Shown: piece by piece, positions 3,138 through 45,130 of the stretch
How positions within the stretch are numbered: position 1 is the first letter of the stretch
How the letters are laid out: each line of letters starts with the position of its first letter
Source of the DNA: Rhodospirillaceae bacterium
GTDB taxonomy: Bacteria > Pseudomonadota > Alphaproteobacteria > SHVP01
NCBI GenBank assembly: GCA_002722055.1
Contig: PBKD01000008.1
Location: 1 to 62,460 of the forward strand
DNA length: 62,460 nt
Direction: 5' to 3'
Translations under genes and position numbers: made by a program
The notes under the pieces: model-generated
Databases searched by the model: none
Told to the model about the DNA's origin: nothing
What the model saw: the letters and a program-made list of their open reading frames with translations, nothing else

Positions 3138-4865
3138 TTAAGTTTTTTTTGAAATCAAATAATTTTCTAATACTAAGTGTTTTAAACCTGATCTTTGAAG
3201 AGTAGATAGTGCGTCACCTGCACTGTTTACTATAGGTTCACCATGAATATTAAAGGACGTTTGAAGCACTCCATATTCTTTATACTTATTACAATAATTT
3301 TTTAACATATTATAAATTTTTTTATTGGTGGACTTTTTTAAGACTTGTGGCCTACAAGTTTTATCTACAGGGTGCATAGCTCCAGCTAATTTATTTTGTG
3401 CTTTTTTTTGGGCTGGTAGTGCAAAAGTCATAAACATTGGCTTTATATTTTTCTTATCTTCAATACAACTTTTATACTTAGTATCTAAAATAGTTGGAGC
3501 AAAAGGCATCCAAAAATCTCTCATTTTAATTTGACTATTAATTCTTTCCACAATATCTTTTGAACCTGCTCTTGCAATAATTGATCTATTACATAAAGCT
3601 CGAGCTCCCCATTCTGTTCTTCCATTGCAAATAGAAATAGGCTCTCCCTTATGTAATATATTACTTATGGTATTATCAAAATCATAATTTTCTTTAATTA
3701 TATAGTTAGTATTTTTTTTAATTTTATTTAAAGTTGCTTTAAGATCTTTATGATAGATAGGTTCACCAAGATATAGATCTGTCATACTACCGTTATTTTT
3801 AAGAAAATCTTTGTTAAAATTATTATTATAGTAATGAAGAGCTGCTCCAATAGACAAAGATTCATCAGAGGCACTCGGCATTACATACATTGAATTTACT
3901 TCTGGTAAATTTTGTATAAGCATATTTGCCTTCACATTCATAAATACGCCTCCACCACAAACTATATCTGAAATCTTTGTTTTCTTTATCGCTGCCTTGA
4001 CCCATTTGACTAACATATCTTCTGTAAACAGCTGCACTGCTCCAGCAATATTGTCAAACCTTATTCTTTCAAACTGCTCTTTAAAATAAAAATAGGAATA
4101 AGCAGTTGATAGATTATTATTAAGTTCAAACTTTAATTTTTTTTTATTTAACTTTAATAAATAATGAAATTTTCTTGCTTCATTATATGCAATTTTTTGA
4201 TCAGCATATGGCGCCAACCCCATAATTTTATATTCATGTTCCCACGGCTTCATCCCTAATAACATAGTTATCCTTGAATATATTTTACCTAAAGATGCAT
4301 GTCTATCTGTTGAGCTTATTCTATTAAAGTTGTTATTATCGCAAATAGACACTGTTGCTGACAGTCCATCGCCTGCTCCATCACATGTTATACCTAAAAA
4401 CTTTTTATCCTTTTTTAATTTTGGAGAGGTATAGTAGGCGGCAGCTAAATGAGCCAAATGATGTTCTATAAATGAAATATTAGCTGGATTGATTTCTAAA
4501 TGTTTTACAACATTTTTTATTCTCGCATCTCTCCTTTGAACAAAAACACTTTTCAAATAATCTTTACTGATTTTTTTATCTAATTTTTGTTCATTTTTTC
4601 CCACAAGATACCATGATGATACATCTGTTAAATAAGAAGGATGATGCATAAAATTTGATGCTATTACTACTTTAGCTATACTAGTAGCATCAATATTAGC
4701 AATTCTTAAACATGCTTCAATTGAGTTTTTTGGATAACCAACTTCATTTTTTTTTCTAGTTATTCTTTCCTCTAAGACGGAAGAAATAATTTTGCCATCA
4801 ATACAGAGAGAAGCTCCACAATTGTGTCCGTCATGTATTCCTAAAATATAGTTATTGTTTTTCAT
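3138..4865 (-). CDS. Carbamoyltransferase, NodU/CmcH family
   Basis: A full-length (575 residues) O-carbamoyltransferase of the NodU/CmcH/TobZ family, which moves a carbamoyl group from carbamoyl phosphate via carbamoyl-AMP onto a hydroxyl. The family landmarks appear in order: GIHDGHNCGASL at the N-terminus; HHLAHLAAAY at about 131-140 with metal-binding histidines; CDGAGDG (about 160); HEYKIMGLAPYA; GGGVFMNVKAN (about 304); GRTEWGARALCNRS (about 415); and the C-terminal TSFNIHGEP. In this setting it probably carbamoylates a surface-polysaccharide sugar. It leads a minus-strand pair with the methyltransferase and is divergent from the GT4 gene, with a 159-base intergenic region likely holding both promoters. 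Confidence 0.93.
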   Translation of the reverse strand: MKNNNYILGIHDGHNCGASLCIDGKIISSVLEERITRKKNEVGYPKNSIEACLRIANIDATSIAKVVIASNFMHHPSYLTDVSSWYLVGKNEQKLDKKISKDYLKSVFVQRRDARIKNVVKHLEINPANISFIEHHLAHLAAAYYTSPKLKKDKKFLGITCDGAGDGLSATVSICDNNNFNRISSTDRHASLGKIYSRITMLLGMKPWEHEYKIMGLAPYADQKIAYNEARKFHYLLKLNKKKLKFELNNNLSTAYSYFYFKEQFERIRFDNIAGAVQLFTEDMLVKWVKAAIKKTKISDIVCGGGVFMNVKANMLIQNLPEVNSMYVMPSASDESLSIGAALHYYNNNFNKDFLKNNGSMTDLYLGEPIYHKDLKATLNKIKKNTNYIIKENYDFDNTISNILHKGEPISICNGRTEWGARALCNRSIIARAGSKDIVERINSQIKMRDFWMPFAPTILDTKYKSCIEDKKNIKPMFMTFALPAQKKAQNKLAGAMHPVDKTCRPQVLKKSTNKKIYNMLKNYCNKYKEYGVLQTSFNIHGEPIVNSAGDALSTLQRSGLKHLVLENYLISKKT

Positions 4866-5024: not shown

Positions 5025-6278
5025 ATGACGAAAAAGAAAATTTTTATGGTATTTAGGTTGTTTACGGGATTTGAAACAAGCCTAAAGAAAAAAAAATGGA
5101 TGCCAGAGGGTGTGCCAACTGTATATAGACTTTTAGAAGGCATACAGAGTCAATCTTATCTCAATATTTATTTTCTTACTAAAGACTCTGGATCAACTTA
5201 TTTTTCTAATTGGAAAGAAAAAAAAGATATTAAAATAAACATCAAAGATTTCAATGCAAATATTTATGTTTTAGCAGGAATTAATTACTTTAAAAAATTT
5301 CTTCCCAAAAAATTACTAATGATTTTAAGAGATTTTAGACATCTAATAAAGATTATAAAATATATTAATTTAGAAAAGCCTGATATAATTTACTTTGATT
5401 CTTCCAATGTAGTTATAGCAGCATTTATAAGGATACTTTTTCCTAAAACTCCAATTGTTTTGAGAATATTAGGTGTTTGCTCTTTTTTAAGAACTATAGT
5501 AAATAGCAAAAAATTAATACACAATATATATAGGTTATCCTTTAAGTCAAAATTTTCTACTGTAATTGCTACTCAAGATGGAAGTGGTATCGAATATTGG
5601 CTAGATAAAGTATTAAGAAATGACGTTAAAAGACATGTTTTATTAAATGGAGTTAACATAGCAACTAAGAAGAAATTTGTAGATAAAAGTTTAATTAATT
5701 TAAAAAATAGAAATAAGAATAAAATTATAATTTTATTTTTAGGTAGACTGGAAGAATATAAAGGAATTAACAATTTTATTGATGCGGCAATTTTATTATT
5801 AAAAAAATTTAACAAAAAACTACATTTTGTAATCGTTGGAAATGGATCTTTATATAATAATTCAGTAAATAGAATAAAGAAAAATAATTACACCAATTCT
5901 TTTACCTTCTTACGAAATATTCCACATAAAAAAGTTATGCAACTTCACCATATCTCTGATATTTATGTGTCAGTCAATAATGACGGCAACCTAAGTAATG
6001 CTAATCTTGAAGCTATTAGTTCTAATGACTGCATGGTAATACCTAAACCCCGTAAATTAGAAAAAATAGACATAAAAACATTTTTTTATTTGCAAAACTC
6101 TGTTATTTATTATGATATAACAAGCACTGAAGATCTGATAAAAAATTTGAAGTTTCTTATAATTAACCCAAGTGAAATAAATAAAATGAAAATAAAAATT
6201 TCTGAAACTAAGAATAATTTTTTGAAAAGCTGGGAACAAAGGGTAAAAGAAGAAAAAAATATTTTATTTGATTTATAA
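5025..6278 (+). CDS. Glycosyltransferase family 4 (GT-B fold)
   Basis: A 417-residue GT4-type glycosyltransferase. The N-terminal donor/acceptor half ends near residue 220, and the C-terminal half opens with the typical strand-turn FLGRLEEYKGI (about residues 238-248). It continues with VIVGNG (about 273-278) and a late acidic region LSNANLEAISS, matching the E-x7-E area where GT4 enzymes bind the nucleotide sugar. It should add one sugar to a lipid-linked glycan at the inner membrane face. It starts the plus-strand operon with the amidotransferase fusion, whose ribosome-binding site overlaps this stop codon. Donor and acceptor are unknown. Confidence 0.85.
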   Translation: MTKKKIFMVFRLFTGFETSLKKKKWMPEGVPTVYRLLEGIQSQSYLNIYFLTKDSGSTYFSNWKEKKDIKINIKDFNANIYVLAGINYFKKFLPKKLLMILRDFRHLIKIIKYINLEKPDIIYFDSSNVVIAAFIRILFPKTPIVLRILGVCSFLRTIVNSKKLIHNIYRLSFKSKFSTVIATQDGSGIEYWLDKVLRNDVKRHVLLNGVNIATKKKFVDKSLINLKNRNKNKIIILFLGRLEEYKGINNFIDAAILLLKKFNKKLHFVIVGNGSLYNNSVNRIKKNNYTNSFTFLRNIPHKKVMQLHHISDIYVSVNNDGNLSNANLEAISSNDCMVIPKPRKLEKIDIKTFFYLQNSVIYYDITSTEDLIKNLKFLIINPSEINKMKIKISETKNNFLKSWEQRVKEEKNILFDL

Positions 6279-6292
6279 GGAGATACTAGTTT

Positions 6293-8122
6293 ATGTGTGG
6301 TATTTTTGGAATAATAGGAAATCACAGTAACTTTAAAAAAGATATAACTTCCTTAGCCAAATCTGCATCTAGAAGAGGAAAGGACTCAAGTGGTATTTTA
6401 ATAAATAATAATGCTTATGCTATTTTGACTGCTGATTACGATATAAGAAAACTAATAAAGAAGATTCATTTTAAAAACATAAATATGATTTTAGGAATTG
6501 GCAGACTTATTACAAATGGTAATAATGATAATCAGCCTTATAAAAAAAATAAAATAATTGTTTTTCATAATGGAATAGTACTAAATGATAAAGAATTATT
6601 TTTAAAAGAAAAATTACTTAGAAATAATAATATTGATACAGAAATAATAGCAGCACTAGCTGAAAAGTATTTGGATAAAAATAATATTGAAAATACAATA
6701 AAAACAATTCTTTCAAAATGTGAAGGTATGATCTCATCTGCAATCTGTTTTACTGAATTAGGTAAATTGGTTCTATTTACTAATAATGGAAGTCTTTATT
6801 ATGCTGAAAAAAAAGGATTGAAATACTTTTCATCTGAAGCTTATCATTTAAAAAAAATAGGATGTATTAACATTGAAAAAGTAATTAAAAATTTTAAAAT
6901 AATTGATATTCCAAAGTGTAAAAGAGAGAAAATAGAAGAAAATAACTTCTCTATTAAAAGAAGACACCTTTTACCAGAAAAAAAATACTCAAAATTTGAA
7001 AAAAACCTGTTAAATTACACAAAGCCAATACTAGTAAGATGCACAAAATGCCTATTACCCCACACTATGCCATTTATAAAATTTGATAGCAATGGTGTTT
7101 GTAATTATTGTTTAAATTATGATAAGAAAAATAAACCTAGAAATATTTTAGAATTAAAAAAAATAGTAAAAAAATTTAAAAATGGTAATAATAATGATTG
7201 CATTGTTCCATTTTCTGGAGGGAGAGATAGTTCTTTTGGGCTACATTTAATTGTAAAAGAGTTAGAACTGAACCCAATAACATATACTTATGATTGGGGC
7301 ATGACTTCAGATATAGGAAGAAAAAATATCAGTCTTATGTGTTCTAAGTTAGGTATAGAAAATATTATAGTTGCAGCAGATATAAAAAAAAAAAGGGAAA
7401 ATATTAAAAAGAATGTAGAAGCTTGGTTAAAAAATCCTCACTTGGGTATGATAAGTTTATTTACAGCTGGAGATAAACATTTTTATCAGTTTGTGGAAGA
7501 TATAAAAAAAGAAACAGGCATTAATTTAAATATATGGGGCAGTAGTCCTTATGAAATTACTCATTTCAAATCAGGCTATTTAGGTATCAAACCAGACTTT
7601 TTTTCTAAAGGTGTATATAGTAGAGGCGTTTTAAAGCAATTGAATTATCAATATTTACGGTTTAAGCAAATGTTTAAAAACCCTTATTACTTAAATAGTT
7701 CTTTATGGGATACTATCTTGGGTGAGTATTATAGAAGCATTAAAAGTAAAAGTTTTTATCATTATATTTTTGACTATTGGAAATGGGATGAAGAAGAAAT
7801 AGAGAAAGTACTGGTAGAAAAGTATGACTGGATTTTAGCTGAGGACACTAAAACTAGTTGGAGAATAGGTGATGGAACAGCATCATTTTACAACTATATA
7901 TATTATACTGTAGCAGGATTTACTGAACATGATACCTTTAGAAGTAATCAAATAAGAGAAGGTGTCATTTCAAGAGATCAAGGTTTGAAATTGATAGAAA
8001 AAGATAATATACCCAGATATGAAAGTATAAATGAATATTTTGATTTGATAGGAGTTGATTTTGAATACGCAATAAAAACAATTAATAAAATTCCTAAACT
8101 CTGGTATCAGAACCCTAGGTAG
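6293..8122 (+). CDS. Fusion of class II glutamine amidotransferase and WbpG-type N-acetyl-sugar amidotransferase
   Basis: A 609-residue two-domain protein. Residues 1 to ~230 form a class II (Ntn) glutaminase: the catalytic Cys follows the initiator Met (MCGIFGIIG), with later GIGRLITNG and FHNGIV segments equivalent to the substrate-binding parts of GlmS/PurF/AsnB. Residues from ~245 match the WbpG/PseA/LegA N-acetyl-sugar amidotransferase family: paired CxxC motifs (CTKC ... CNYC, about 249-274) and a PP-loop VPFSGGRDSS (about 303-312) for ATP adenylation. That family normally receives ammonia from separate HisH and HisF homologues, as two other copies in this window do. Here the glutaminase is built in and no HisH/HisF lies nearby. 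The likely job is conversion of an N-acetyl group to acetamidino on a sugar. The start has a good AAGGAG site. It converges with the next gene, overlapping by 8 bases. Confidence 0.85.
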   Translation: MCGIFGIIGNHSNFKKDITSLAKSASRRGKDSSGILINNNAYAILTADYDIRKLIKKIHFKNINMILGIGRLITNGNNDNQPYKKNKIIVFHNGIVLNDKELFLKEKLLRNNNIDTEIIAALAEKYLDKNNIENTIKTILSKCEGMISSAICFTELGKLVLFTNNGSLYYAEKKGLKYFSSEAYHLKKIGCINIEKVIKNFKIIDIPKCKREKIEENNFSIKRRHLLPEKKYSKFEKNLLNYTKPILVRCTKCLLPHTMPFIKFDSNGVCNYCLNYDKKNKPRNILELKKIVKKFKNGNNNDCIVPFSGGRDSSFGLHLIVKELELNPITYTYDWGMTSDIGRKNISLMCSKLGIENIIVAADIKKKRENIKKNVEAWLKNPHLGMISLFTAGDKHFYQFVEDIKKETGINLNIWGSSPYEITHFKSGYLGIKPDFFSKGVYSRGVLKQLNYQYLRFKQMFKNPYYLNSSLWDTILGEYYRSIKSKSFYHYIFDYWKWDEEEIEKVLVEKYDWILAEDTKTSWRIGDGTASFYNYIYYTVAGFTEHDTFRSNQIREGVISRDQGLKLIEKDNIPRYESINEYFDLIGVDFEYAIKTINKIPKLWYQNPR

Positions 8123-9755
8123 TTTTTTTATTGACTTTCCCATCCCATCTTATTTTTTTCCTTATTAAATAATCTTCAATATACCAACTTATAGGACTGT
8201 AATGCCCTCTATTATCAATATATATTTTTTTCAAAGGCCAAGGCTTATAAGCGAGCAAATCTTCAGTAAAATACTCAATATACTTTCTTTCAAATTTATG
8301 CCACTTAGCTTTACCTAAAAAAATAAAAATGGCTTTGAAAAAAAATCTAATTACATTCAATAAAGGATTAATATTTTTTTTTGGGTTTAGTGCTATATTC
8401 TTCCATACATCACCCCAATTACTTTCATAAATAATATCTCTATATAATTTTTGACTAAATTTATTTTCAATAGAAATTTTTTCCCAATATTTTAAATATT
8501 CAAAATCCCACAGTGGCATTCGCCATTCATATCCAAAGAATTCATAATTTCTTGAGCCATTAATTACGTATTTAACTTGTCTATTATAAAACTCTATAGT
8601 TTCATATAAACCATAATAATTAATTTTTTTAAATCTCCTTTTTCCCAATATAGAATTTATCTGTTTTTTTAATAATTTTTTTACTATATCTTTATATTTT
8701 TTATTAAGTAGTGTGCTCCAATATTTATTGTGCTTTTCTATGTATTCATTAATTACAGTTTTTTTACTACTAATTTCATGGGTAAGGGATTTGGGGATAT
8801 GGTTACCTGAAATAAAGTCACCACTTTGCCCATTAACAAATATTGCATCCTTATGAATAAGGTTTCTTTTTTTTAATTCATATATCATAAAATATTCACT
8901 TATAAAATGAATGGAGTTTAGATTATCGCAATAATCTTCGTATTGTTTATAGTTATTTGAATAATAAAGCTTTCTTATAGAATCTGTTTTGTATGGTATT
9001 TTTATCCATTTATATCCTAATTTTCTTGCTACTTTTTTAGCTATTAGCATATCAGTATTATCTCTTTTTCCATAAGAGACACAAATTACGTTCTTATACC
9101 CAAAATGTTTAAGTCCAGATACAATAAACCTTGAGTCCCAGCCCCCCGAAAGTGGAACAACTATCTGTCTGTTATTAACACTTTTAATTAGCTTCTTAAT
9201 AATTTTCTCATTTAATTTTAATAAATTATTTTTAAAGTTAAATTTGTGATCATATATTTTCCATGGTTTCCATTCATAGTATTTTTTAAAAAAATATTTG
9301 TGGTCTTCAATCCATAAATATTCTCCTGGTAAAAAGGCTGATATTGGTTTATATAAAGTTGATTTATCTATGGTATACCCAGACATAGCAAATGATGTTG
9401 ATATAACAGGATTAACATCACTGCTTTTAATTTTAAGATACTCTGTAATAACCTTTCCATTATCAGCTATATGTATTGTATTATTCCTTAATGAAAAAAG
9501 TAAAGGATAAGAGCTGATCCTGTCAACACAGACAAAACTATAATTTTTAGTTTTTACAAATATTGAAAAGTTACCATCTATTAAACTAATTTTTTTTTTA
9601 ATATTTCTTTTATTTATTGAGCATAATAGTTTTAAAATTTCTAAATCAGAAAAATTATGGAAGTGTCCTATAATCCAAAAACTAGTATTATATTTCTTAT
9701 AATAACGCCAGGTTTTTTTTGAATTTAAAAAAGTAATATTTTTTATATAGACCAT
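8115..9755 (-). CDS. Asparagine-synthetase-like protein lacking the catalytic Cys
   Basis: A 546-residue protein with asparagine synthetase B architecture. The N-terminal half resembles the glutaminase domain (SLIDGNFSIFV, CVDRISSYPL, GEYLWIE) but starts MVYIKN, so the essential N-terminal Cys is missing. The synthetase half has an intact PP-loop PLSGGWDSR (about residues 202-210), and a later segment YEWRMPLWD is family-typical. Without a working glutaminase it may use free ammonia, get ammonia from a partner, or form an amide with another amine, as beta-lactam synthetases do. It converges on the class II glutaminase fusion, overlapping 8 bases. A role in modifying a uronic-acid or amino-acid substituent of a glycan is inference. 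Confidence 0.75.
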   Translation of the reverse strand: MVYIKNITFLNSKKTWRYYKKYNTSFWIIGHFHNFSDLEILKLLCSINKRNIKKKISLIDGNFSIFVKTKNYSFVCVDRISSYPLLFSLRNNTIHIADNGKVITEYLKIKSSDVNPVISTSFAMSGYTIDKSTLYKPISAFLPGEYLWIEDHKYFFKKYYEWKPWKIYDHKFNFKNNLLKLNEKIIKKLIKSVNNRQIVVPLSGGWDSRFIVSGLKHFGYKNVICVSYGKRDNTDMLIAKKVARKLGYKWIKIPYKTDSIRKLYYSNNYKQYEDYCDNLNSIHFISEYFMIYELKKRNLIHKDAIFVNGQSGDFISGNHIPKSLTHEISSKKTVINEYIEKHNKYWSTLLNKKYKDIVKKLLKKQINSILGKRRFKKINYYGLYETIEFYNRQVKYVINGSRNYEFFGYEWRMPLWDFEYLKYWEKISIENKFSQKLYRDIIYESNWGDVWKNIALNPKKNINPLLNVIRFFFKAIFIFLGKAKWHKFERKYIEYFTEDLLAYKPWPLKKIYIDNRGHYSPISWYIEDYLIRKKIRWDGKVNKKTT

Positions 9756-12398: not shown

Positions 12399-12494
12399 AA
12401 TTGTTCTATATCTTTTTTTCATCATCTAATAGTTTACTAAATACACTTCAATTTAATTATTGATTTTTCTTTTAAATTTTGTTGTATTACTTTG

Positions 12495-13436
12495 ATGGTA
12501 TCTAAAAATCAAGATATACTATGTGCTTGCTTTGACATTAAAAAGAGCTATGTAACTAATTACCTCAAAAGAGATGATGCCAATATAGAATATCTGTATT
12601 CTTCAACTAAAATAGGAAGTAAATGTACTGCATGTTTAGCAGATATAGACTTATTATTAAGCAATACTCATGATATTGACAGTGTATTAGATAAGAGAAT
12701 TAAAGATAGCAATGAAAAATTTGAAATTGCTTATCAAGGAAGACATCCTGATGAAAGGCTGGATTCAGGCATATTTTTTAATGATAACGGAATGACAACT
12801 AGTATAGTTCTTGCTAATCATAATCCGTTATTTAGAGATACTGATGAATCTGTAGATCACAAATATCATATAAGGCTTTTTTCAGAAAATGGACAAGTTA
12901 CTACCAACATAAAAGGCCTATCTAAAGTTGGGCAAACTCTTACTATTAATTTAATTGAATATGAAAAATGTCCTAAAAGAGGATGGTATTTAATTTCTTT
13001 ACTTCCATTAAAACCAGGATTTTATGGTACATTAAGACCACAAATTTTAGTAAAAGGTAATAATTGGGCATTGACTACCCATGTTCAACCTCACATACAT
13101 GCTAGTTATGGTCCAGGGAAGCTACCCAGAAGATCACATATGTACATAAAATCTGTCGAAGGTAAGACCAATACTTCATTATCTATAATAAATGCCTCAA
13201 ATAAACAAGGAGACTTTACTGTAGAATTGAGTGAGGACGATTATCTAGAGACCTATACAAATAAAATTTCACCTAATGGTTCGGTGATAGTTGATCTAGA
13301 TAAAAAAATAGCTTGTTTTCCAGAAGATGGAGTGCTATTAATTGCAGTTAGAAGCAGTGTACCTACTAGAAAACACATAATTATGGAGAGTGAAAATGGA
13401 ACAATTAGTATGGACCATTTTCCCAATACAGTATGA
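12495..13436 (+). CDS. BFD-type [2Fe-2S] motif fused to a domain of unknown function
   Basis: This 313-residue protein begins with a segment matching the bacterioferritin-associated ferredoxin (BFD-like) [2Fe-2S] motif. Cys10-x-Cys12, a 31-residue spacer, then Cys44-x-x-Cys47 in the context TKIGSKCTAC is the family's CxC-x31-CxxC pattern. The remaining ~250 residues look like all-beta structure (LFSENGQVTT, KTNTSLSIINASN, ISPNGSVIVDL) and belong to no family I recognise. I chose the ATG at 12495 over an adjoining TTG at 12492; no clear ribosome-binding site separates them. It overlaps the next gene by four bases (ATGA), so the pair is translationally coupled. The C-terminal part resembles the end of that neighbour. 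A redox or iron-sulfur role in a carbohydrate locus is inference. Confidence 0.65.
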   Translation: MVSKNQDILCACFDIKKSYVTNYLKRDDANIEYLYSSTKIGSKCTACLADIDLLLSNTHDIDSVLDKRIKDSNEKFEIAYQGRHPDERLDSGIFFNDNGMTTSIVLANHNPLFRDTDESVDHKYHIRLFSENGQVTTNIKGLSKVGQTLTINLIEYEKCPKRGWYLISLLPLKPGFYGTLRPQILVKGNNWALTTHVQPHIHASYGPGKLPRRSHMYIKSVEGKTNTSLSIINASNKQGDFTVELSEDDYLETYTNKISPNGSVIVDLDKKIACFPEDGVLLIAVRSSVPTRKHIIMESENGTISMDHFPNTV

Positions 13437-14257
13437 ATAAGTTTTTCCACTATTGTTCACCACTAATTTATCCTGTAATGCCTGAAAAAGCAGGAAGGAC
13501 TATAATAAAGTTAGATTTTGCAGCAATAATCATGAATCATGTTCCTGTAAACATCGAGCTTGAAGATGCTATTATTGATGTTGAAGTTGATGTTTTTTAT
13601 AATGGCGAACTGCAGAATACAAAAAAATTCGAGGTTGAAGTTAAAGATAAAAAAATGAGTCCCAGATACTTCCAAGAAAGCTATCAGTTGCCAGGGTTTG
13701 GTTATGCTCAAATATCTTTATTTACTAAAAAGCCTTATTTTAGCAAAATTGAAACTGAGAAAGGTTATGCATTATTAGTTGGTAAAAAAGCTGTAATATC
13801 AACTGTTCTACCTCAGTCAAAATATTCAGAACCTCTAATTATTGCTAATATGAAAACTACGGGCACTTTTAATTTAGTAAATCCAGCTCATTATTTAGAC
13901 AAAGGTGCTGGTATATCTAATTCCGCACTTTTGATTAATCCATATGATGGACCAATCGTTGCATTAATAATTAGCGATGAAAATAAAAAAATAAGAAAAA
14001 AAATGCCCGGGAAAAGTGCCATAATAGTAAATCTTGCCGAACTTATTTCGGAAAAAAGACCTACTTGTGTGCTTTACTCTGGAAGTAATAGATATACAGG
14101 ATGGGACATTAGGCACAAATATGGGGAAGTAAATTCTATTACAAATATTGACCATCTAGAATATTATAGAGCGCTTCCGACATATAAAGATAAGACAATA
14201 TATCAAAATATTAAACATCAAGTTAAAAAAGTAGCTAGAAATTTTAATAGATATTAA
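13433..14257 (+). CDS. Unknown beta-rich partner of the BFD-domain protein
   Basis: A 274-residue protein with no recognised family and no signal peptide or membrane span. It is predicted mostly beta. The segment from about residue 165 (ALLINPYDGP ... KMPGKSAIIVNLAEL ... NIDHLEYYRA) follows the same order of hydrophobic strands as the C-terminal part of the preceding protein (SLSIINASNK ... KISPNGSVIVDLDK ... SMDHF). That suggests the two share a domain that arose by duplication. The start codon lies inside the preceding stop (ATGA), implying coupled translation and probably a complex. The basic tail (HQVKKVARNF) resembles tails of some glycan-locus proteins. It converges closely with the CysQ-like gene. 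Confidence 0.6.
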   Translation: MNKFFHYCSPLIYPVMPEKAGRTIIKLDFAAIIMNHVPVNIELEDAIIDVEVDVFYNGELQNTKKFEVEVKDKKMSPRYFQESYQLPGFGYAQISLFTKKPYFSKIETEKGYALLVGKKAVISTVLPQSKYSEPLIIANMKTTGTFNLVNPAHYLDKGAGISNSALLINPYDGPIVALIISDENKKIRKKMPGKSAIIVNLAELISEKRPTCVLYSGSNRYTGWDIRHKYGEVNSITNIDHLEYYRALPTYKDKTIYQNIKHQVKKVARNFNRY

Positions 14258-19160: not shown

Positions 19161-20180
19161 CTATACCTTAATAATTTGTCCTCGATTAAATGTTTTATTT
19201 GATTTTTTATTTATGATTTTTTTATAATCAAAGGCTCTAATCGCATCCTTATTATTTATTATTCTTTTAAAAGCAATATTATTAAGATCAAATTTAGTAC
19301 CTTTTTTTATTTTTTCTGAAGCTACACAAAACCTCTGCAAACTTAGCTTTTTATTTAATTCTTTTTTAGTAGGTTCCTTATTGTTCTTCCCTAAAATTTT
19401 TTCTATTTTTCTAATTTCAGTTACCATATTCTTAAATTCTTTAGGGTCTAAAGAAATTTTATGATCAAATCCTCTAGCTTTATTATCTAAAGTAAAGTGT
19501 TTTTCTATAATTTTAGCTCCTGCCGCTACTGCTAATAGTGAGGCTTTATAATTTAAAACATGATCAGAATATCCAGTAATTACATTAAACTTTCTATTTA
19601 AATATCTAATTGAATTTAGATTAGTTTCTCCTATTGCTGCAGGGTATACAGATACACAATGTAAAATTGCTAAATTGTTTTTTCTCTTGTTTTGAATATT
19701 TTTAACAACAGTTTTTATTTCTTCAATGCTTGCCATACCAGTTGATAGAATTATTGATTTTCCAGTTTTCTTTATTTCTTTTATCAAAGGCAGATTAGTT
19801 AATAAGCCCGAGGAAATTTTATAAAAATTTATATTTAATTTCTCACATAAATCTAAACTTTTAAGGTCTCCTGGAGTAGCAAATATATCTCCTTTATGTA
19901 TAAATTTCTTTAATAAATTTTCATACTCATTAGCTTTTAATAAAGATTTTTTAAAAAGTTTATATGAAATTGATTTTTCTTCGTATGATAAATCTGGGTC
20001 TACAATTTGAAATTTAACTGCATCGGCTCCTGCTTTAAAAGCTTCCTTTGTAAGAACAATTGCTTTATTTACATCTCCCTCATGATTAATTCCAATTTCT
20101 GCTATAATATAACATGGTGAGAATACTGAAATAGTTTTTTTTCTATTTAAATAAAATTTGCATTTATTATTTTCTAACAT
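19161..20180 (-). CDS. Sialic-acid-synthase family protein (NeuB type), copy 1
   Basis: A 339-residue NeuB/PseI/LegI homologue, the TIM-barrel enzyme that condenses phosphoenolpyruvate with a 6-carbon sugar to make a 9-carbon nonulosonic acid. Visible motifs are IIAEIGINHEGD (about residues 25-36), AVKFQ, STGMAS (about 143-148), GYSDH and IIEKHFTLD (about 220), followed by a C-terminal SAF antifreeze-like domain (about 280-339). I use the ATG at 20180, preceded by AAAAGG eight bases upstream, rather than a GTG at 20189. The start overlaps the class III aminotransferase gene, so the two are coupled. It is the last gene of the array. Its partners (aminotransferase and isopropylmalate-synthase-like) suggest a non-standard substrate. 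Confidence 0.9.
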   Translation of the reverse strand: MLENNKCKFYLNRKKTISVFSPCYIIAEIGINHEGDVNKAIVLTKEAFKAGADAVKFQIVDPDLSYEEKSISYKLFKKSLLKANEYENLLKKFIHKGDIFATPGDLKSLDLCEKLNINFYKISSGLLTNLPLIKEIKKTGKSIILSTGMASIEEIKTVVKNIQNKRKNNLAILHCVSVYPAAIGETNLNSIRYLNRKFNVITGYSDHVLNYKASLLAVAAGAKIIEKHFTLDNKARGFDHKISLDPKEFKNMVTEIRKIEKILGKNNKEPTKKELNKKLSLQRFCVASEKIKKGTKFDLNNIAFKRIINNKDAIRAFDYKKIINKKSNKTFNRGQIIKV

Positions 20181-21450
20181 TGAAAACACCTTTTAGTTTT
20201 TTTCCTTCTAAAAATTTTTCTGGTTCTTTAGTTTCTAAAAAATATTTTACTTTTTCCAAACTCTTTTTCATTCTGCTTATAGTTGAATTGAATATTTGCT
20301 TGTTGTTATGCTTTAGACATAAGTTATAGCTTGACCCTATGAACAAACCACTTTTTATAAGTTCTTGCCTAAATAAATGCAATGTAATATTAGATTGATT
20401 TTTAAATGTAAATCTTGGCCACCAATTGTTCCCTTCCATCTCAATATATTTTTGCAAATTCAATCTTAATATTATATCATTTGTCTGTTTTATTAATTTG
20501 CTACCAAGCTCTTCTAATTTTTGAGGAACATTTAAAATTTCTAGCTTTTTTATAGTAGCCAAAGCAGCAGCCATTGAAAGTGTTTCTCCTGCGAATGTTC
20601 CTGAAACAAATATTTCTTCTATATTTCTCATTATTTTTTTTCTACCTACTATTGCCGAAATAGGATACCCGTTAGCCATAGACTTACCAAAACAACCTAA
20701 ATCAGGCATTATTCCAAATTTTTTAGATGCTCCTCCTATATGTGTTCTAAAACCACAAACTATCTCATCAAATATAAGAAGAATACCAGACTTTTGGCAT
20801 AAACTTTTTAATTCTTTTAGATAATGTTTTTCAGGAATTATAATACCATCTGGTTCAACTATAATTGCGCATATTTTATTTTTAAATTTCTTAATTTTTT
20901 TAACTAAATCGTTAATATCATTGTACTTAAACGTTTTTGTGAGTCTACTTACTTCTTTAGGAACACCCATATTTCTTGAAGTAGAACCTATATACCAATC
21001 ATGCCAGCCATGATATCCAGACACTAATACAATGTCTTTTTTTGTATAAGCCCTTGCTAACCTTACAGCAGCAGACAATACATCTGATCCATTTTTTCCA
21101 AATCTTACCATTTCAGCATAAGGTATTATTGACTTGATTTTTTCAGCTAGTTCTATTTCTATAGGATGCGACATAGAAAATACAACTCCTTTTTTCATTT
21201 GTTCTTTGACAGCAATATCTACATCCTTATCTTGATATCCTAAAATGATAGGTAACAATGATAATAAATAATCTATATATGTATTTCCATCTACGTCTAC
21301 TATTTTACATCCTTTGGCTTTTTCAAAAAACATAGGTGAAGCTCCAAGAGGCCACTGTAATGATGATTTAGAAAATGTCTGAGTAGCTAAAGGTATTGTA
21401 TTTAAGGCTTTATTATATAAATTATTAGATTTACGAAATGAAATAGTCAT
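20167..21450 (-). CDS. Class III aminotransferase / glutamate-1-semialdehyde aminomutase-like
   Basis: A 427-residue PLP enzyme of the HemL-like class III group. Motifs include GNTYIDYLLSLLPIILGY (about residues 54-71), RFGKNGSDVLSAAVR (about 116-130), SGYHGWHDW, IFDEIVCGFR (about 231-240) and the PLP Lys at about residue 256 in FGKSMANGYP. Sequence style is close to glutamate-1-semialdehyde aminomutase, but the setting between NeuB and an isopropylmalate-synthase homologue argues against heme synthesis. More likely it transaminates, or moves an amino group within, a sugar- or keto-acid-derived intermediate. Its start codon overlaps the upstream stop (TAATG). No such gene is known in the classical Neu/Pse/Leg routes. 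Confidence 0.85.
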   Translation of the reverse strand: MTISFRKSNNLYNKALNTIPLATQTFSKSSLQWPLGASPMFFEKAKGCKIVDVDGNTYIDYLLSLLPIILGYQDKDVDIAVKEQMKKGVVFSMSHPIEIELAEKIKSIIPYAEMVRFGKNGSDVLSAAVRLARAYTKKDIVLVSGYHGWHDWYIGSTSRNMGVPKEVSRLTKTFKYNDINDLVKKIKKFKNKICAIIVEPDGIIIPEKHYLKELKSLCQKSGILLIFDEIVCGFRTHIGGASKKFGIMPDLGCFGKSMANGYPISAIVGRKKIMRNIEEIFVSGTFAGETLSMAAALATIKKLEILNVPQKLEELGSKLIKQTNDIILRLNLQKYIEMEGNNWWPRFTFKNQSNITLHLFRQELIKSGLFIGSSYNLCLKHNNKQIFNSTISRMKKSLEKVKYFLETKEPEKFLEGKKLKGVFNVRK

Positions 21451-24719: not shown

Positions 24720-25865
24720 TTAATCCCATATATTTCTTTTTTCCCATTTACCCTTGGAGTTTGTCTTCCATACTTTTTCACTTCTAAATGTGTTAGCTAC
24801 TCTATCGAACTCTTCTTCAGTCATATTCACGTAATCTAACCAATCATAGGTATCTGAAGATTTAACATGATCATACTTTTTTACCAAAGAAATACCCTCT
24901 GCCCTTGTCATATGCCCATTACGTATATCCTTACACACATGATCTGTAGCCCTACCATAACCAAATTTAATATATTTTAAATAATCATGAACTCCGTTTT
25001 CATATTTATCATCAAGATTTGAAAAATTTCTATATGTTCTCTCAAATGGATATGGAGATGGCTTCCATCCATATTTATTCATCACTAATTGCACATGTTT
25101 ATTAGCGTCCCATGGATCATAATTACCAATAAATATACCTCTTAACCCCACCTTTTTAATTTCTTCATCATTGGGATATTTACACCATTCCATTTCTTTT
25201 TCTTCTATTTTTTCCCTATCTGAATTAAGCATATCTACCCAATCAAAACCTCTTAGAAGCTGATCTTTCCTATAACGAGAGGTATATTCAACTAGGTCAT
25301 TCATAGAGTGCATACCTCCAAGATCAGTCCAGCCATGTTCACCCCAGAAAACTAAAGGTATATTCATTTTAATACCCATTTTCATTGGCAAAGTAGCAAT
25401 TCCTGCATGATTATGCCAGTTCATATCTCCCATTAAGTAAAAACATAATCTATTTAACTTAATGATGGTATCAGTTCCAGGAGAAAAAATGAAATGATCA
25501 ACATTAAATACATCTTTCATTCTAGTGAGATTCTCCCAACCTGTTTTGAGATAATTATTGCCATTATATGTTACTAATAATGGATTTAAACCTAAAATAT
25601 TTTTTACATAGTGAACTTGATAATAACTATCTTTTCCTCCTGAGACCCCAATAATACATTCATACCCAGAAGGCTTTCTATATTGTTCTATATCATTCAA
25701 TAACCATTTTAATCTCTCATCCCAGTCAATATTTTTTTTTTCTTCATGTGTTCTGCAACCACTACATATACCTTCTTCATCAAACACTAAACTGACAGCA
25801 GATGAGGTAGGGTAAACACATTTATTGCACCAAGATATTTCAGGCAAATTTTTGTTTATAGTCAT
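24720..25865 (-). CDS. N-acetyl-sugar amidotransferase, WbpG/PseA/LegA family (triad 1)
   Basis: A 381-residue PP-loop enzyme of the WbpG type, which activates an N-acetyl group with ATP and replaces its oxygen with nitrogen to give an acetamidino sugar. Motifs are the paired zinc-type cysteines CNKC (about residues 14-17) and CSGC (about 34-37), and the PP-loop IIGVSGGKDSYYQV (about 66-79). Ammonia should come from the two genes upstream in the transcript, a HisH-type glutaminase and a HisF-type cyclase homologue, spaced by 2-11 bases. The C-terminal helix-rich region (DHVCKDIRNGHMTRAEG) is family-typical. The sugar substrate is probably the product of a neighbouring nonulosonate or diaminosugar route. 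Confidence 0.92.
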   Translation of the reverse strand: MTINKNLPEISWCNKCVYPTSSAVSLVFDEEGICSGCRTHEEKKNIDWDERLKWLLNDIEQYRKPSGYECIIGVSGGKDSYYQVHYVKNILGLNPLLVTYNGNNYLKTGWENLTRMKDVFNVDHFIFSPGTDTIIKLNRLCFYLMGDMNWHNHAGIATLPMKMGIKMNIPLVFWGEHGWTDLGGMHSMNDLVEYTSRYRKDQLLRGFDWVDMLNSDREKIEEKEMEWCKYPNDEEIKKVGLRGIFIGNYDPWDANKHVQLVMNKYGWKPSPYPFERTYRNFSNLDDKYENGVHDYLKYIKFGYGRATDHVCKDIRNGHMTRAEGISLVKKYDHVKSSDTYDWLDYVNMTEEEFDRVANTFRSEKVWKTNSKGKWEKRNIWD

Positions 25866-25867
25866 TT

Positions 25868-26653
25868 TTATCTTATATCACTTCTATTTATTTTTAAAAA
25901 GGCCTTAAATATTGGATATGCATTTTCAGTAAAATGAAAAATATTACCTGCTGCTATAGCCTCTGCCCTTGTTTTATTAAAGCAATCTAAAATATGAAAT
26001 TTATTTCCTGCACCACTGCAAGCTATTACTGGAATACTTACAGAATCAACCAAATTATTAATTATTTCATAATTATAACCTCGTGCTTCTCCATCATTAT
26101 CTATAGATTGCAAAAGAATTTCTCCAGCACCTAATCCCTCTAATCTTTTTCCAAGTTCAATTGGGTCTTCTTCAAGCATAATTCTTCCTTTATCAGAAAA
26201 AGCTATAGCCTTCCCTTCCACTATTTTATAATCAATGCTTGAGACTATGGCCTGTCTGCCAAAAATTTTTGCAGACTCAGTAATTATGTTCGGATTTGTA
26301 TTAGTAATAGTATTTATGGCTACTTTATCTGCTCCATTACAGATTATAGTCTCTATATCATTAATATTTTTAATATTACCTCCGAATGTTAATGGCATAT
26401 GACTTTCTATAGATAGCTTTCTAATTAACTCTAAAATATTTTCTACTGGTTTTATTTTATAATCTTTTCTATTGTGAGTAATGTTTTGATCAGTACTTAT
26501 ATCTAAGATAACTAATTCATCCACATCCCATTCTTTCATTCTTTCAACATGAGAATAAGGGTCACCAATAATCTGATGTATTTTAAACTGTTGACTTCTT
26601 ACCATCCAGCCATTTCTAAAAAATAAAATAGGGATTAATCTTCTTTTATACAT
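25868..26653 (-). CDS. HisF-like ammonia-channel partner of the sugar amidotransferase (triad 1)
   Basis: A 261-residue (beta/alpha)8-barrel homologous to imidazole-glycerol-phosphate synthase HisF. HisF-type segments are RRLIPILFFRNGWMV at the start, ELVILDIS (about residues 46-53), PLTFGGNI (about 80-87), ADKVAINT (about 103-110) and GAGEILLQSIDNDGEARGY (about 156-174). In WbpG systems this protein docks the glutaminase and channels ammonia rather than making histidine. It starts 11 bases after HisH and ends 2 bases before the amidotransferase. No other his gene is nearby. The name hisF would be misleading here. Confidence 0.9.
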   Translation of the reverse strand: MYKRRLIPILFFRNGWMVRSQQFKIHQIIGDPYSHVERMKEWDVDELVILDISTDQNITHNRKDYKIKPVENILELIRKLSIESHMPLTFGGNIKNINDIETIICNGADKVAINTITNTNPNIITESAKIFGRQAIVSSIDYKIVEGKAIAFSDKGRIMLEEDPIELGKRLEGLGAGEILLQSIDNDGEARGYNYEIINNLVDSVSIPVIACSGAGNKFHILDCFNKTRAEAIAAGNIFHFTENAYPIFKAFLKINRSDIR

Positions 26654-26664
26654 TACGATCTTTC

Positions 26665-27282
26665 TTAATTTTGATCATAGAAATTTTGCAAAAATAATTC
26701 ACCTATTCTTCCACTTTTTTCAGGGTGAGACTGAATGCCAAGTATATTTTTTTTCTTTACTATTGAAGTAAAATTTGTCCCATAATATGTTTTTCCTATT
26801 TCTACACTTTTCTCACAATACATTACATTAGTGTGAGCGAAATACATATCTTCATTATTTATATTTTTGAGAAAGCTATTACCACTACTTATTTTTATAG
26901 TATTCCAACCCATATGAGGAAGGCTTAAGTTATTATTCAATAACCTTTTTACATTTCCTTCTATCCACCCTAAAGCATTATAAACTTTAAATTCCTCGCA
27001 GGTTTTAGCTAGAATTTGCATGCCTAAGCAAATTCCTAGAAAAAAAACACTTTTTTTAATAACTAAGTCATTTAAAGCCATTATAAATTGTTTTTTTTCT
27101 AAACTATTCAGAGCTTCTCCTACAGCACCTACTCCCGGCAGAATAATATGAGTTGGACTATATTTTAATAAAGATTTACCGTCTTCTACAATATATGGCT
27201 TATAATTGAGTCTAACTAAGGCATTAAATACTGAATTTATATTTCCTATGCCCATATTTATTAATGCCAATTTTTTTTTCAT
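26665..27282 (-). CDS. HisH-like glutaminase for the sugar amidotransferase (triad 1)
   Basis: A 205-residue class I (triad) glutamine amidotransferase that hydrolyses glutamine and passes ammonia to the HisF-like barrel. The oxyanion and P-loop-like segments are ILPGVGAVGEALN (about residues 47-59), the nucleophile Cys is in FLGICLGMQIL (about 80-90), and His-x-Glu lies in GIQSHPEKSG (about 182-191). It is the first gene of the triad after NeuB copy 2. Glutaminase length and residues look intact, so the triad should be functional. Confidence 0.92.
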   Translation of the reverse strand: MKKKLALINMGIGNINSVFNALVRLNYKPYIVEDGKSLLKYSPTHIILPGVGAVGEALNSLEKKQFIMALNDLVIKKSVFFLGICLGMQILAKTCEEFKVYNALGWIEGNVKRLLNNNLSLPHMGWNTIKISSGNSFLKNINNEDMYFAHTNVMYCEKSVEIGKTYYGTNFTSIVKKKNILGIQSHPEKSGRIGELFLQNFYDQN

Positions 27283-27360: not shown

Positions 27361-28356
27361 TTACAAATCATCTAAACTAATACCTTCTTCAAATTTAATT
27401 TTATTTTTAACCTTTTTTCCTATTATGTTAGCAATGTCCTTCGGCTTTAACTCACTTTCTGGTCTACAAATTTTTAGCATATTATGAGTAATAGTTTCAC
27501 CAACCTCTATATCTCTTGCAGCATACACTCCTCTTCTAATTTGCTTGATTGTTTCTTCCCCTTCTACCAGTGGCTTTTTTAGAGAACCTCTGGCTTTAAA
27601 TATATTTAAAATACTGTCAGTTAAATTCTTAAAGTCTGTTGGGTTACATGAATGTTTATGATCTGGCCCTTCTAAAGAATTATCTATAGTAAAATGTTTT
27701 TCTATCAAATTAGCTCCATTTGCAACAGCTGCCATTGCAATATCATTACCTACAGTATGATCAGAAAAACCTATTGGAACATCAAAAGATCGCCTTAATT
27801 CCTGAAGGTATCTTAAATGAACATCTTTAAAATCTGTAGGATAATTAGAAATACAATGTAATATAGCAACTTTTATTTTTTTATTTATACAATATATTAC
27901 ATCAATAGCATCACTAACTTCTTCTATATTACTAGCTCCTGTAGATATAATTATGGGAAGAGATTTTTTAGCTACCGCACTTAAAAGTGGAAAATTATTT
28001 ATATCACCAGATGCAATTTTATAACATTGAGTATTTAACTTATGATTGATATTAACTGACCATTCATCAAAAACAGATGAAAAAAAAATAATACCAATTT
28101 TATTAGAGTAGTCATAGAGCTCAGCTAATTCAAACTCATCAAGCTGACAACTTTGAAATAACGGATAGTACTTACTTTTTTTTAAGCAAAAACTTTCAAC
28201 TTTAAAGCTTTGTATTTTAACTGCATCTGCTCCACTCTCTTTAGCAGATAAAATCATTCTTTTCGCTAGATTTTTATCTCCGTTATGATTTATGCCTACC
28301 TCTGCAATAACAAAGGGTTTACTATTATCTCCTATTAAATGATTTCCTATCTTCAA
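27361..28356 (-). CDS. Sialic-acid-synthase family protein (NeuB/PseI type), copy 2
   Basis: A 331-residue NeuB-family PEP-condensing synthase with AEVGINHNGD (about residues 18-27), AVKIQSFK, ISTGASN (about 137-143), GFSDHTVG (about 195-202), LIEKHFTID and a C-terminal SAF domain (about 270-331, with RPESELKP). Judging by its neighbours, an SpsF-type cytidylyltransferase and an SpsG/PseG-type hydrolase, it belongs to the pseudaminic-acid-like or spore-coat Sps-type subset. The first codon is a TTG at 28356; no ATG lies close. Assignment to PseI versus a LegI-type enzyme is not possible from motifs alone. Confidence 0.9.
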   Translation of the reverse strand: MKIGNHLIGDNSKPFVIAEVGINHNGDKNLAKRMILSAKESGADAVKIQSFKVESFCLKKSKYYPLFQSCQLDEFELAELYDYSNKIGIIFFSSVFDEWSVNINHKLNTQCYKIASGDINNFPLLSAVAKKSLPIIISTGASNIEEVSDAIDVIYCINKKIKVAILHCISNYPTDFKDVHLRYLQELRRSFDVPIGFSDHTVGNDIAMAAVANGANLIEKHFTIDNSLEGPDHKHSCNPTDFKNLTDSILNIFKARGSLKKPLVEGEETIKQIRRGVYAARDIEVGETITHNMLKICRPESELKPKDIANIIGKKVKNKIKFEEGISLDDL

Positions 28357-42490: not shown

Positions 42491-43723
42491 TTACTTCTTC
42501 AGCTCCTCTATTTCTTGATGTAAAACCCATTCTCCATTTTGCAAAGTCCACAAGTGTGGAGATCTAAATTGATCTATTTTATTCCAAAAATATTTTTCTG
42601 TTATATTTAGATAACTTAAATACTCTTTAAAATATCTTTTTGGAAACTCTCCTTCAAATTTTTTAGCTAATAAAATTGCTTCTTCTCTGTCAATATGTCC
42701 ATTTCTTATTTCTTGACTAGCATCAAATCTTGTTCTACCAATTCCAAATTTTATATAATGGCAAAAATAATGTAATGCATCAAATTTATCATCTATACCT
42801 GAATACTTACCATAGGTTCCTTCAGTTCTTCGAGTATCTGCTTCAAAACCGCAATTTTCTACTGCATAGTAGTATGCTGACTGTGGGTCCCACTTTATAT
42901 ACCACCCTAAATTATCAACAACTATTTTCTTATCCTTTATCATTTCATGATTTACTGCAGTATAAGGCTCTAGGTCATTTTTTGAAAGTTTATACTTTGA
43001 TTGAAGTTTGTTAACAGGAATGCCTGCTATATAGGTTTCACCTATATCTTTTTTTATGCTATAAAATTCTTCTCCAAACCCAGGTTTTTCAACTTTTTTT
43101 GCATCTTCACTTCCGTACTCTGATCTAGGTTCCCCATAAAAAACTAAATCTATATTAAACTTTATTGCAATCTTAATTGGAAAAACCTTCAAGCCAAACT
43201 TAAAGGGTTGCAAGGGATGTAAAATATTATCAAATGCTTCTTTTGCTAATATTTTCGCAACCTTTCCATTAGCTTTAAATAAAATATTATCAAAACCACC
43301 AATATCTATCCAATTATTCATATTTTTTAAACCTTCTTCGGTATAGAGAAGTGGCGAGAATGTAACAGTTAAAGGATTCATCCCATACCTATATTTTAGA
43401 ATATGCGACGCCATAGCACTATCCTTTCCACCCGAACCTGGAACAACACAATCATAACTGCCATCATTTTTTCTATATTTATCTAAAAGTTTTACTAATT
43501 TATTTTCTCTATCTTTCCAATCAATTTCTTTATCTTTCTTTTGAGCATAGTGACAAGCAGCACATACCCCATCATTATGCATGAAAAGACCTAGTTTTTT
43601 GCCCTGAGCGCCATGCTCCATTTCATTAACTGAGAATGGTTTTTGATTTGTCATTAAACATTTTTTACAATGTTCTACTTTTTCGGGTAGCCCATACAGA
43701 GAAAATTTGTTATCTTTTTTCAC
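42491..43723 (-). CDS. N-acetyl-sugar amidotransferase, WbpG/PseA/LegA family (triad 2)
   Basis: A 410-residue PP-loop amidotransferase. It has paired cysteines CKKC (about residues 19-22) and CAAC (about 55-58), and the PP-loop VVPGSGGKDSAMA (about 96-108). The sequence NPLTVTF and the later GEPRSEYGSED distinguish it from triad 1, with which it is clearly paralogous but not near-identical. The first codon is GTG at 43723, with TAGG six bases upstream. HisF- and HisH-type genes lie directly upstream, in HisF-HisH order, opposite to triad 1. It probably makes an acetamidino group on a nonulosonic or diamino-uronic sugar. Confidence 0.93.
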   Translation of the reverse strand: MKKDNKFSLYGLPEKVEHCKKCLMTNQKPFSVNEMEHGAQGKKLGLFMHNDGVCAACHYAQKKDKEIDWKDRENKLVKLLDKYRKNDGSYDCVVPGSGGKDSAMASHILKYRYGMNPLTVTFSPLLYTEEGLKNMNNWIDIGGFDNILFKANGKVAKILAKEAFDNILHPLQPFKFGLKVFPIKIAIKFNIDLVFYGEPRSEYGSEDAKKVEKPGFGEEFYSIKKDIGETYIAGIPVNKLQSKYKLSKNDLEPYTAVNHEMIKDKKIVVDNLGWYIKWDPQSAYYYAVENCGFEADTRRTEGTYGKYSGIDDKFDALHYFCHYIKFGIGRTRFDASQEIRNGHIDREEAILLAKKFEGEFPKRYFKEYLSYLNITEKYFWNKIDQFRSPHLWTLQNGEWVLHQEIEELKK

Positions 43724-43735
43724 TTTTTACCTAAT

Positions 43736-44359
43736 CTAATTTCTTATTAATTTAACAAAGTTATTTAAAATTTGAAAACCTGAGTTGTCACTTAATTCAG
43801 GATGAAATTGACATCCCATAATATTTTCATTTTGTATTATAGCCGGTATTTGAAAATTACCATAATCTATTATACCTATAATATCATTTTCTTCATCTAC
43901 ATCGCAATAATAAGAATGAATAAAATAAAAACTATTGTCATCACTTATATTGTTAAATGGCTGCTCTACATTATTTCTTATCTTTACATTACACCATCCA
44001 ATATTTGGTATGGGCCATCCAGTTTGCTCTTTAATTGGTCTAACTGTTCCTGATATTAAATTTAGCCCTTCATGAACTCCAAATTCATAGCTTTTGCCTA
44101 AAAGTAATTGCATACCTAAACAAATACCTAAAATTGGTTTTTTTTGAAAAGCAAAATTTTTTAACCCTTCAACAATATTAGATTTTTGTAGAGTTTCTAT
44201 GCCTGATTTATAAGCACCCACTCCTGGTATTATAAGTGCATCTGATTGCTTTAATTCACTCAAATCATTAACTAAACTTAAATTTACTTCTAACTCCTTA
44301 ATACATTTGATAAGATTATATAAATTCCCGCTGCCAATATCTACTACACCTATTTTCAT
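43736..44359 (-). CDS. HisH-like glutaminase for the sugar amidotransferase (triad 2)
   Basis: A 207-residue class I glutamine amidotransferase. The oxyanion strand is ALIIPGVGAYKSGIE (about residues 41-55), the nucleophile Cys sits in ILGICLGMQLL (about 76-86), and the catalytic His-x-Glu in GCQFHPELSD (about 181-190). It feeds ammonia through the HisF-like partner to the amidotransferase that begins 12 bases downstream. The start codon directly abuts the HisF-like stop, so the two are translationally coupled. Confidence 0.92.
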   Translation of the reverse strand: MKIGVVDIGSGNLYNLIKCIKELEVNLSLVNDLSELKQSDALIIPGVGAYKSGIETLQKSNIVEGLKNFAFQKKPILGICLGMQLLLGKSYEFGVHEGLNLISGTVRPIKEQTGWPIPNIGWCNVKIRNNVEQPFNNISDDNSFYFIHSYYCDVDEENDIIGIIDYGNFQIPAIIQNENIMGCQFHPELSDNSGFQILNNFVKLIRN

Positions 44360-45130
44360 TTATTTTATTACCAGCCTTGTAGGAATATCATGTTTCAGTA
44401 ATTCCTTTTTAATTAAAACTATTCTATCCAAGTTAAAATGCAATATATGTCCAATGGCCACTGCTCTTACTCCTAGGTCAACTAGTTTTATAATATCTTT
44501 ATAATTTCTTATACCTCCAGAAACAATAACTGGAACTTTAGCAATCTCCAATACTTTTTTAATTAATTCAAAGTCTGGTCCAAGCTTAGTTCCATCTTGA
44601 TCTATAGAAGTAAGTAAAATTTCTCCTGCTCCTAAATCAACTGCCTCTTGTAACCAATCAATAACATCTTTATTACTTTTCTCTCTACCATTATTATAAT
44701 AAGCTTCCCAAAATCCATTTTGCTTTTTTTTTGCTTGAATAGATATAACAATAGATTGTGTGCCAAATACAGTTGCTAACTCGTTAATAATTGATGGCGT
44801 TGTAATAGCCTGAGTATTTAAAGATATTTTATCTGCTCCACTTCTAAATAGCTTTTTTGCTTCTTCCTTACTTTTAACACCACCACCAACACAGAGAGGT
44901 AATTTAATCTTTTCAGAAACTTTAGTTACTAAATCATGTAAATTATTTCTTCCATATAGAGAAGCCACAGAGTCTATAAATAATATTTCATCAGCTGAGT
45001 CTAAATAATATTTTTCACTTAACTCCTCTGGTAAGCCAACTTTTCTTAGGCCTTCCATTCGAATTCCTTTAATTACATTTAAACCTTTAACTTCTAACTT
45101 AGGAATAATTCTTATATTGGGTGTTTTCAT
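44360..45130 (-). CDS. HisF-like ammonia-channel partner (triad 2)
   Basis: A 256-residue HisF-type barrel. Segments match the family: RIIPKLEVKGLNVIKG near the start, EILFIDSVASLYGRNN (about residues 47-62), LCVGGGVKS (about 78-86), ADKISLNT, and GAGEILLTSIDQDGTKLG (about 158-175). It lacks any histidine-operon context and acts with the HisH-like glutaminase beside it. It follows the cytidylyltransferase by 28 bases in the array. Confidence 0.9.
   Translation of the reverse strand: MKTPNIRIIPKLEVKGLNVIKGIRMEGLRKVGLPEELSEKYYLDSADEILFIDSVASLYGRNNLHDLVTKVSEKIKLPLCVGGGVKSKEEAKKLFRSGADKISLNTQAITTPSIINELATVFGTQSIVISIQAKKKQNGFWEAYYNNGREKSNKDVIDWLQEAVDLGAGEILLTSIDQDGTKLGPDFELIKKVLEIAKVPVIVSGGIRNYKDIIKLVDLGVRAVAIGHILHFNLDRIVLIKKELLKHDIPTRLVIK

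Follow-up and report, generated by a model that had tools for sequence, protein, structure and literature searches.

A class II glutaminase fused to a NASAT-type synthetase: a probable self-contained sugar amidotransferase of surface polysaccharide assembly

Enzymes of the NASAT (N-acetyl sugar amidotransferase) family ligate ammonia to the N-acetyl group of a sugar, with loss of water and probably with conversion of ATP into AMP and pyrophosphate, and, according to the structural work that describes this chemistry, little is known of their structure and function (PMC10607449). A cluster associating wbuX, hisF and hisH has been described (PMC11340318), and a Tannerella forsythia protein of 605 residues, Tanf_01265, has been proposed for formation of the acetamidino group of a glycan that also needs a uronamide enzyme (PMC6120980). 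The known NASAT systems comprise three proteins; with a single chain that carries its own glutaminase, it would be much easier to prove the chemistry, glutamine going in and AMP, pyrophosphate and an amidine coming out. We consider here a gene that codes for one fusion protein which probably does the work of these three.

The window, that is, the whole stretch of DNA that was analysed (62,460 nucleotides of contig PBKD01000008.1, assembly GCA_002722055.1, from a Rhodospirillaceae bacterium), carries this gene together with the other features collected in Table 1. Its translation gives 609 residues and a single terminal stop, with no internal stop, and a GGAG stretch resembling a ribosome-binding site lies shortly 5' of the start. 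The protein begins with MCGIFGIIG and displays the pattern CTKC...CNYC across residues 250-273; the single reading frame, the MCGIFG start, the paired CxxC motifs and the SGGRDSS PP-loop that an earlier note, made from the letters of the window alone, had pointed out are all there.

Table 1. Features of the window discussed in the text, with positions counted from its first letter.
Feature	Positions	Strand	Evidence or remark
GT4 glycosyltransferase directly upstream of the fusion	5025-6278	+	Gene pair also present in L039, L112 and L119, the three nearest relatives
Fusion gene, class II glutaminase and NASAT (WbpG/WbuX-like) synthetase, 609 aa	6293-8122	+	
Class II (Ntn) glutaminase domain, about residues 1-205; Cys2 at 6296-6298	6293-6907	+	Pfam GATase_6/7; GlmS/AsnB models; Foldseek 1xff; conservation
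NASAT-type synthetase domain, residues 244-600	7022-8092	+	hhalign to stand-alone NASATs; TIGR03573; 8wex
Tetracysteine C250, C253, C270, C273 (NASAT zinc motif)	7040-7111	+	Invariant in 81/81; LpNASAT motif (PMC10607449)
PP-loop SGGRDSS, residues 308-314	7214-7234	+	S308-S313 invariant in 81/81 fusions
NeuB-type synthases	19161-20189, 27361-28356, 51553-52590		
Stand-alone NASAT, canonical set 1	24720-25865	-	WbuX, 335.9 bits
HisF/WbuZ-type partner, set 1	25868-26653	-	
HisH-type glutaminase, set 1	26665-27282	-	
Stand-alone NASAT, canonical set 2	42491-43723	-	WbuX, 318.8 bits
HisH-type glutaminase, set 2	43736-44359	-	Homology to HisH of set 1
HisF/WbuZ-type partner, set 2	44360-45130	-	

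Relatives of the fusion were found at 80 loci, on named contigs, in nearly all cases along the entire length and with 43-65% identity, in Pseudomonadota, Bacteroidota, Actinomycetota, Bacillota, Planctomycetota, Verrucomicrobiota, Campylobacterota, Cyanobacteriota and others, full-length fusions spanning about ten phyla. Chryseobacterium, Pseudomonas, Devosia, Nocardioides, Malaciobacter and Homoserinibacter are among the isolates that have it. It should be kept in mind that MCGIFG was one of the two search seeds for this set, so that conservation of the N-terminus within it is partly selected, while the profile searches of Pseudomonadota and Bacteroidia were run without such a seed. Among the sampled genomes, 3 of 385 Alphaproteobacteria and 24 of 295 Bacteroidia have the fusion, found at full length in 3 of 398 Pseudomonadota, each of these counts taking in the centre genome; full-length homologues are also borne by plasmids of Agrobacterium (53%) and Solidesulfovibrio (38%), and the phage collection gave no match. 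This patchy spread is as for a gene travelling with polysaccharide clusters.

That two neighbouring genes were merged by an error of sequencing or assembly, a danger against which the earlier note had warned, has next to no chance of being true, and we reject it: nothing was found in its favour, full-length fusions are present in isolates and in metagenome-assembled genomes (MAGs) of many phyla, and no strong match of the fusion branch, where fully readable, lacks the N-terminal domain. The fusion is a real protein, not an accident of assembly. Some candidate variants did not survive scrutiny. L010, L014 and L131, WbpG-type frames of seemingly great length, are no second fusion type and owe their extra length to an out-of-gene frame or to read-through into a HisF gene; among the Bacteroidia matches that seemed to hold the C-domain alone, L175 and L176 proved to be complete fusions, and L177 is truncated by the start of its contig.

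The catalytic cysteine stands directly after the initiator methionine, as class II (Ntn) amidotransferases require. The domain search that the earlier note had suggested recognizes the N-terminal half as GATase_7 (1.1e-9) and as GATase_6 (1.4e-8), both above the Pfam gathering score, GlmS being its closest relative by profile scores. Cys2 is present in 78 of the 81 clean fusion sequences, the other three having a serine, a proline and a partial sequence. The residues of GlmS that bind glutamine or form the oxyanion hole, which we take to be Arg73, Asn98-Gly99 and Asp123, have their counterparts kept in the fusion as R71 (79 of 81), N93-G94 (79 and 81) and D115 (80). The AlphaFold2 model of the protein, built from an input alignment of 63 homologues, has a pLDDT of 90.7 and a pTM of 0.90, and Foldseek matches its N-terminal half with the glutaminase of GlmS (1xff, TM 0.66-0.67) and with EgtC (TM 0.63-0.64), and its C-terminal half with the NASAT 8wex (TM 0.55-0.56), all values normalised by target. 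In this model each half has the expected fold, including the glutaminase fold on which the earlier note had staked its reading of the first domain. The top match spanning both halves is asparagine synthetase, with an rmsd of about 22 Å over the two domains, so that the order of the domains is common to both proteins while their arrangement in space is different. We infer glutaminase activity for the N-terminal domain.

Does the fusion still call on separate partners for its ammonia? In 13 of 16 named genomes it is the only WbuX-type match and there is a single strong HisF, weak second HisF matches adjoining the strong one being taken as HisA; in each of the remaining three, another WbuX-type protein scores above the cut-off, and a second HisF lies at a distance of 2-4 kb from that protein's gene. 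As these 13 genomes have neither another NASAT nor a second HisF, the fusion does not need dedicated HisH and HisF, it being understood that one of the 13 has a decayed glutaminase (L117, see below), which leaves 12 clean cases, and that some of the 16 are drafts, which makes the absence of partners strong, not absolute. Around the fusion itself, neither NASAT nor HisH nor HisF was found at 34 of the 52 loci whose flanks reach 8 kb or more on each side, while 12 of the 52, this window included, have a complete separate set. HisH and HisF without NASAT were seen at two loci, one of which (L036) is cut there, the other (L047:8457-11827, from a Flavobacteriales MAG) being a real exception where both genes lie directly upstream of the fusion with no stand-alone NASAT in the 21.8 kb of this locus.

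One could take this exception to mean that the glutaminase domain persists as a remnant, structural or regulatory, the synthetase using free ammonia or still docking HisH and HisF. The same could be said of two members, L113:187-1968 (MSGIFG) and L117:10001-11803 (MPGIFG), where Cys2, Arg71 and Asn93 are all lost while the synthetase motifs are kept. This pattern looks like a loss of glutaminase function alone, joint decay being expected if these residues serve one function, and L117, its glutaminase dead and its partners absent, implies that some members either work without a glutaminase or have lost their function. As a general explanation, however, a leftover domain is quite improbable: the catalytic cysteine and its partner residues are intact in about 78 of the 81 members, the MCG start is intact in every member fully readable from the profile searches, Bacteroidia included, and dedicated HisH and HisF are absent from most carriers. 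We retain a working glutaminase as the preferred reading. The proposal of the earlier note that an Ntn glutaminase was swapped in for both HisH and HisF agrees with the 13 genomes, and it does not extend to the organism from which it was drawn, where the three-protein system has not been replaced: two complete canonical sets are present in the window beside the fusion, so that this organism carries both solutions. These two sets are mutually divergent and belong to one cluster with the NeuB-type synthases, which makes it possible that several amidinated nonulosonic or related sugars are made there.

The nearest relatives of the C-terminal half are, by far, the NASATs. The NCBIfam model TIGR03573 (WbuX) aligns with residues 250-587 at 8.7e-41, against 3.5e-5 for the next-best match of this domain, with a score of 140.5 bits that stays below the curated cut-off of 203.2; it is matched by all 63 fusion members, and the fusions of the 16-genome search, at 126-148 bits for a cut-off of 203, are all sub-threshold. 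Among PDB sequences the closest is 8WEX, a Legionella NASAT, and residues 244-600 can be aligned with a profile of eight stand-alone NASATs (hhalign, 99.9%, E 5.5e-36). Besides the cysteines and the PP-loop, both groups share Asn345 and a C-terminal G..R motif. About 38 residues that never vary among the fusions are seldom or never found in the stand-alone NASATs, and the fusions have an insertion, W378-L384, which none of the 32 stand-alone proteins has. When 42 C-domains of fusions and 32 stand-alone NASATs are placed in one tree, a single branch (support 100, stem of 3.42 changes per column) separates the fusions from the others; long-branch warnings concern some stand-alone rows, not this split as such. 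As all fusion C-domains are on one branch, the glutaminase and the NASAT domain were probably joined once; and the motifs held in common, taken together with the residues and the insertion proper to fusions, suggest that the chemistry was probably kept while the substrate site probably changed. The description of this half as a WbpG-type amidotransferase, put forward in the earlier note, is right as to whole-domain homology and motifs, and has to be tempered by the deep separate branch, the sub-cut-off score and the residues of its own; we know of no standard NASAT enzyme named LegA, a name that the note had added to the family.

An acetamidino (N-acetimidoyl) group seems to us a fairly likely product. 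The depth of the branch, the sub-cut-off score and the many residues of its own nevertheless leave room for a different amidated product, the same architecture yielding a uronamide, or an amide or amidine of another acyl group, after divergence of the synthetase towards a new substrate. This would agree with the sub-threshold WbuX scores in all genomes tested, with the invariant residues found only in fusions, and with the coexistence of fusion and canonical sets at the 12 loci mentioned above. We consider it unlikely, though deserving attention, as the NASATs are so much nearer than any other family, their tetracysteine and C-terminal motif are retained, and several clusters hold a separate AsnB-type protein, the type usually proposed for uronamides.

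The fusions sit in polysaccharide clusters, and a same-strand glycosyltransferase is found within 300 nt of the fusion at 62 of 76 loci. In the main branch a WcaI/WbuB-like GT4 lies downstream, often with a second GT4 upstream, and next come an initiating sugar transferase, a NeuD/PglD-like acetyltransferase, an aminotransferase and a 4,6-dehydratase. Fusions of a long Bacteroidia branch (about 680 aa) are usually preceded by a GT2 of the polyprenyl-phosphate type, a family read from sequence. In this branch a GT2 gene of that type, 2-69 nt from the fusion, takes the place of the GT4 at L169, L172, L174, L175, L178 and L179. It is conceivable, and to our mind rather doubtful, that the fusions form a separate class of sugar amidotransferases, with a substrate chemistry of their own, coupled to the adjacent glycosyltransferase, GT4 in one branch and GT2-like in the long Bacteroidia branch, and possibly modifying a lipid-carried sugar instead of a nucleotide sugar.

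Other genes of the window deserve mention in their own right. Tail to tail with the fusion lies an AsnB-like gene (8115-9755) with a weak Asn_synthase match, neither a glutaminase-domain match nor an N-terminal Cys being found in it; a 38% homologue is located near the L112 fusion. A gene of the NodU/carbamoyltransferase family (3138-4865), also near the fusion, suggests O-carbamoylated sugars, and none was found near the fusions of other loci. Finally, an unannotated pair (12492-14257) comprises a first gene with a weak BFD-like [2Fe-2S] match and a second without a match.

We may now propose, with reasonable confidence, that the fusion works by itself as a sugar amidotransferase of surface polysaccharide assembly, dependent on glutamine and ATP. 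Glutamine would be hydrolysed by the N-terminal domain, with Cys2 as nucleophile once the methionine has been removed, and ammonia would move within the protein to the C-terminal domain. There the PP-loop domain would use ATP to adenylate and so activate the amide of an N-acetylated sugar, releasing AMP and pyrophosphate, and ammonia would displace the activated oxygen, most likely creating an acetamidino group. The sugar, either a nucleotide sugar or lipid-linked, would be handed to, or received from, the glycosyltransferase of the adjacent gene.

The earlier note knew of no characterised example of such a protein, and in the open literature, subscription journals being mostly outside our search, we likewise found no description of the fused architecture. 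Members of the family are currently annotated as hypothetical protein, glucosamine 6-phosphate synthetase or 7-cyano-7-deazaguanine synthase, the second label probably because the glutaminase half is nearest to GlmS. Recognition of the family would let these annotations be corrected, make amidinated glycans predictable in Bacteroidia and other bacteria without HisH2/HisF2, and help in studying how ammonia is channelled from an Ntn glutaminase to a NASAT domain.

How does the fusion stand among known systems? With the NASAT family (WbpG, WbuX, PseA; TIGR03573; LpNASAT 8WEX), homologous to its synthetase domain, it has in common the zinc tetracysteine, the PP-loop, the C-terminal motif and a setting in O-antigen or other polysaccharide clusters, and it differs by a class II glutaminase of its own, by the dispensability of HisH and HisF, by its own invariant residues and by a deep branch below the cut-off. 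Its N-terminal domain presumably has the role of HisH2/HisF2 (WbuY/WbuZ, AglZ), bringing glutamine-derived ammonia to the NASAT domain, yet HisH is a separate class I (triad) glutaminase and HisF a separate barrel used as a conduit, where the fusion has one fused Ntn domain. It is not a GlmS, as it lacks a match to SIS in Pfam and its similarity to the NCBIfam GlmS model is confined to residues 1-190; unlike GlmS and PurF it has neither a sugar isomerase (SIS) nor a phosphoribosyltransferase domain. AsnB and its relatives (beta-lactam synthetase, WbpS-type proteins) present the same order, an N-terminal class II glutaminase followed by a PP-loop synthetase, but the synthetase of the fusion is a NASAT, not Asn_synthase (no PF00733 match in Pfam; 50.8 bits with TIGR01536 for a cut-off of 267.1), its domains are arranged differently, and to our knowledge the zinc tetracysteine does not occur in AsnB. 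The fusion joins two known domains in a new arrangement, and, both being known, it is not categorically new.
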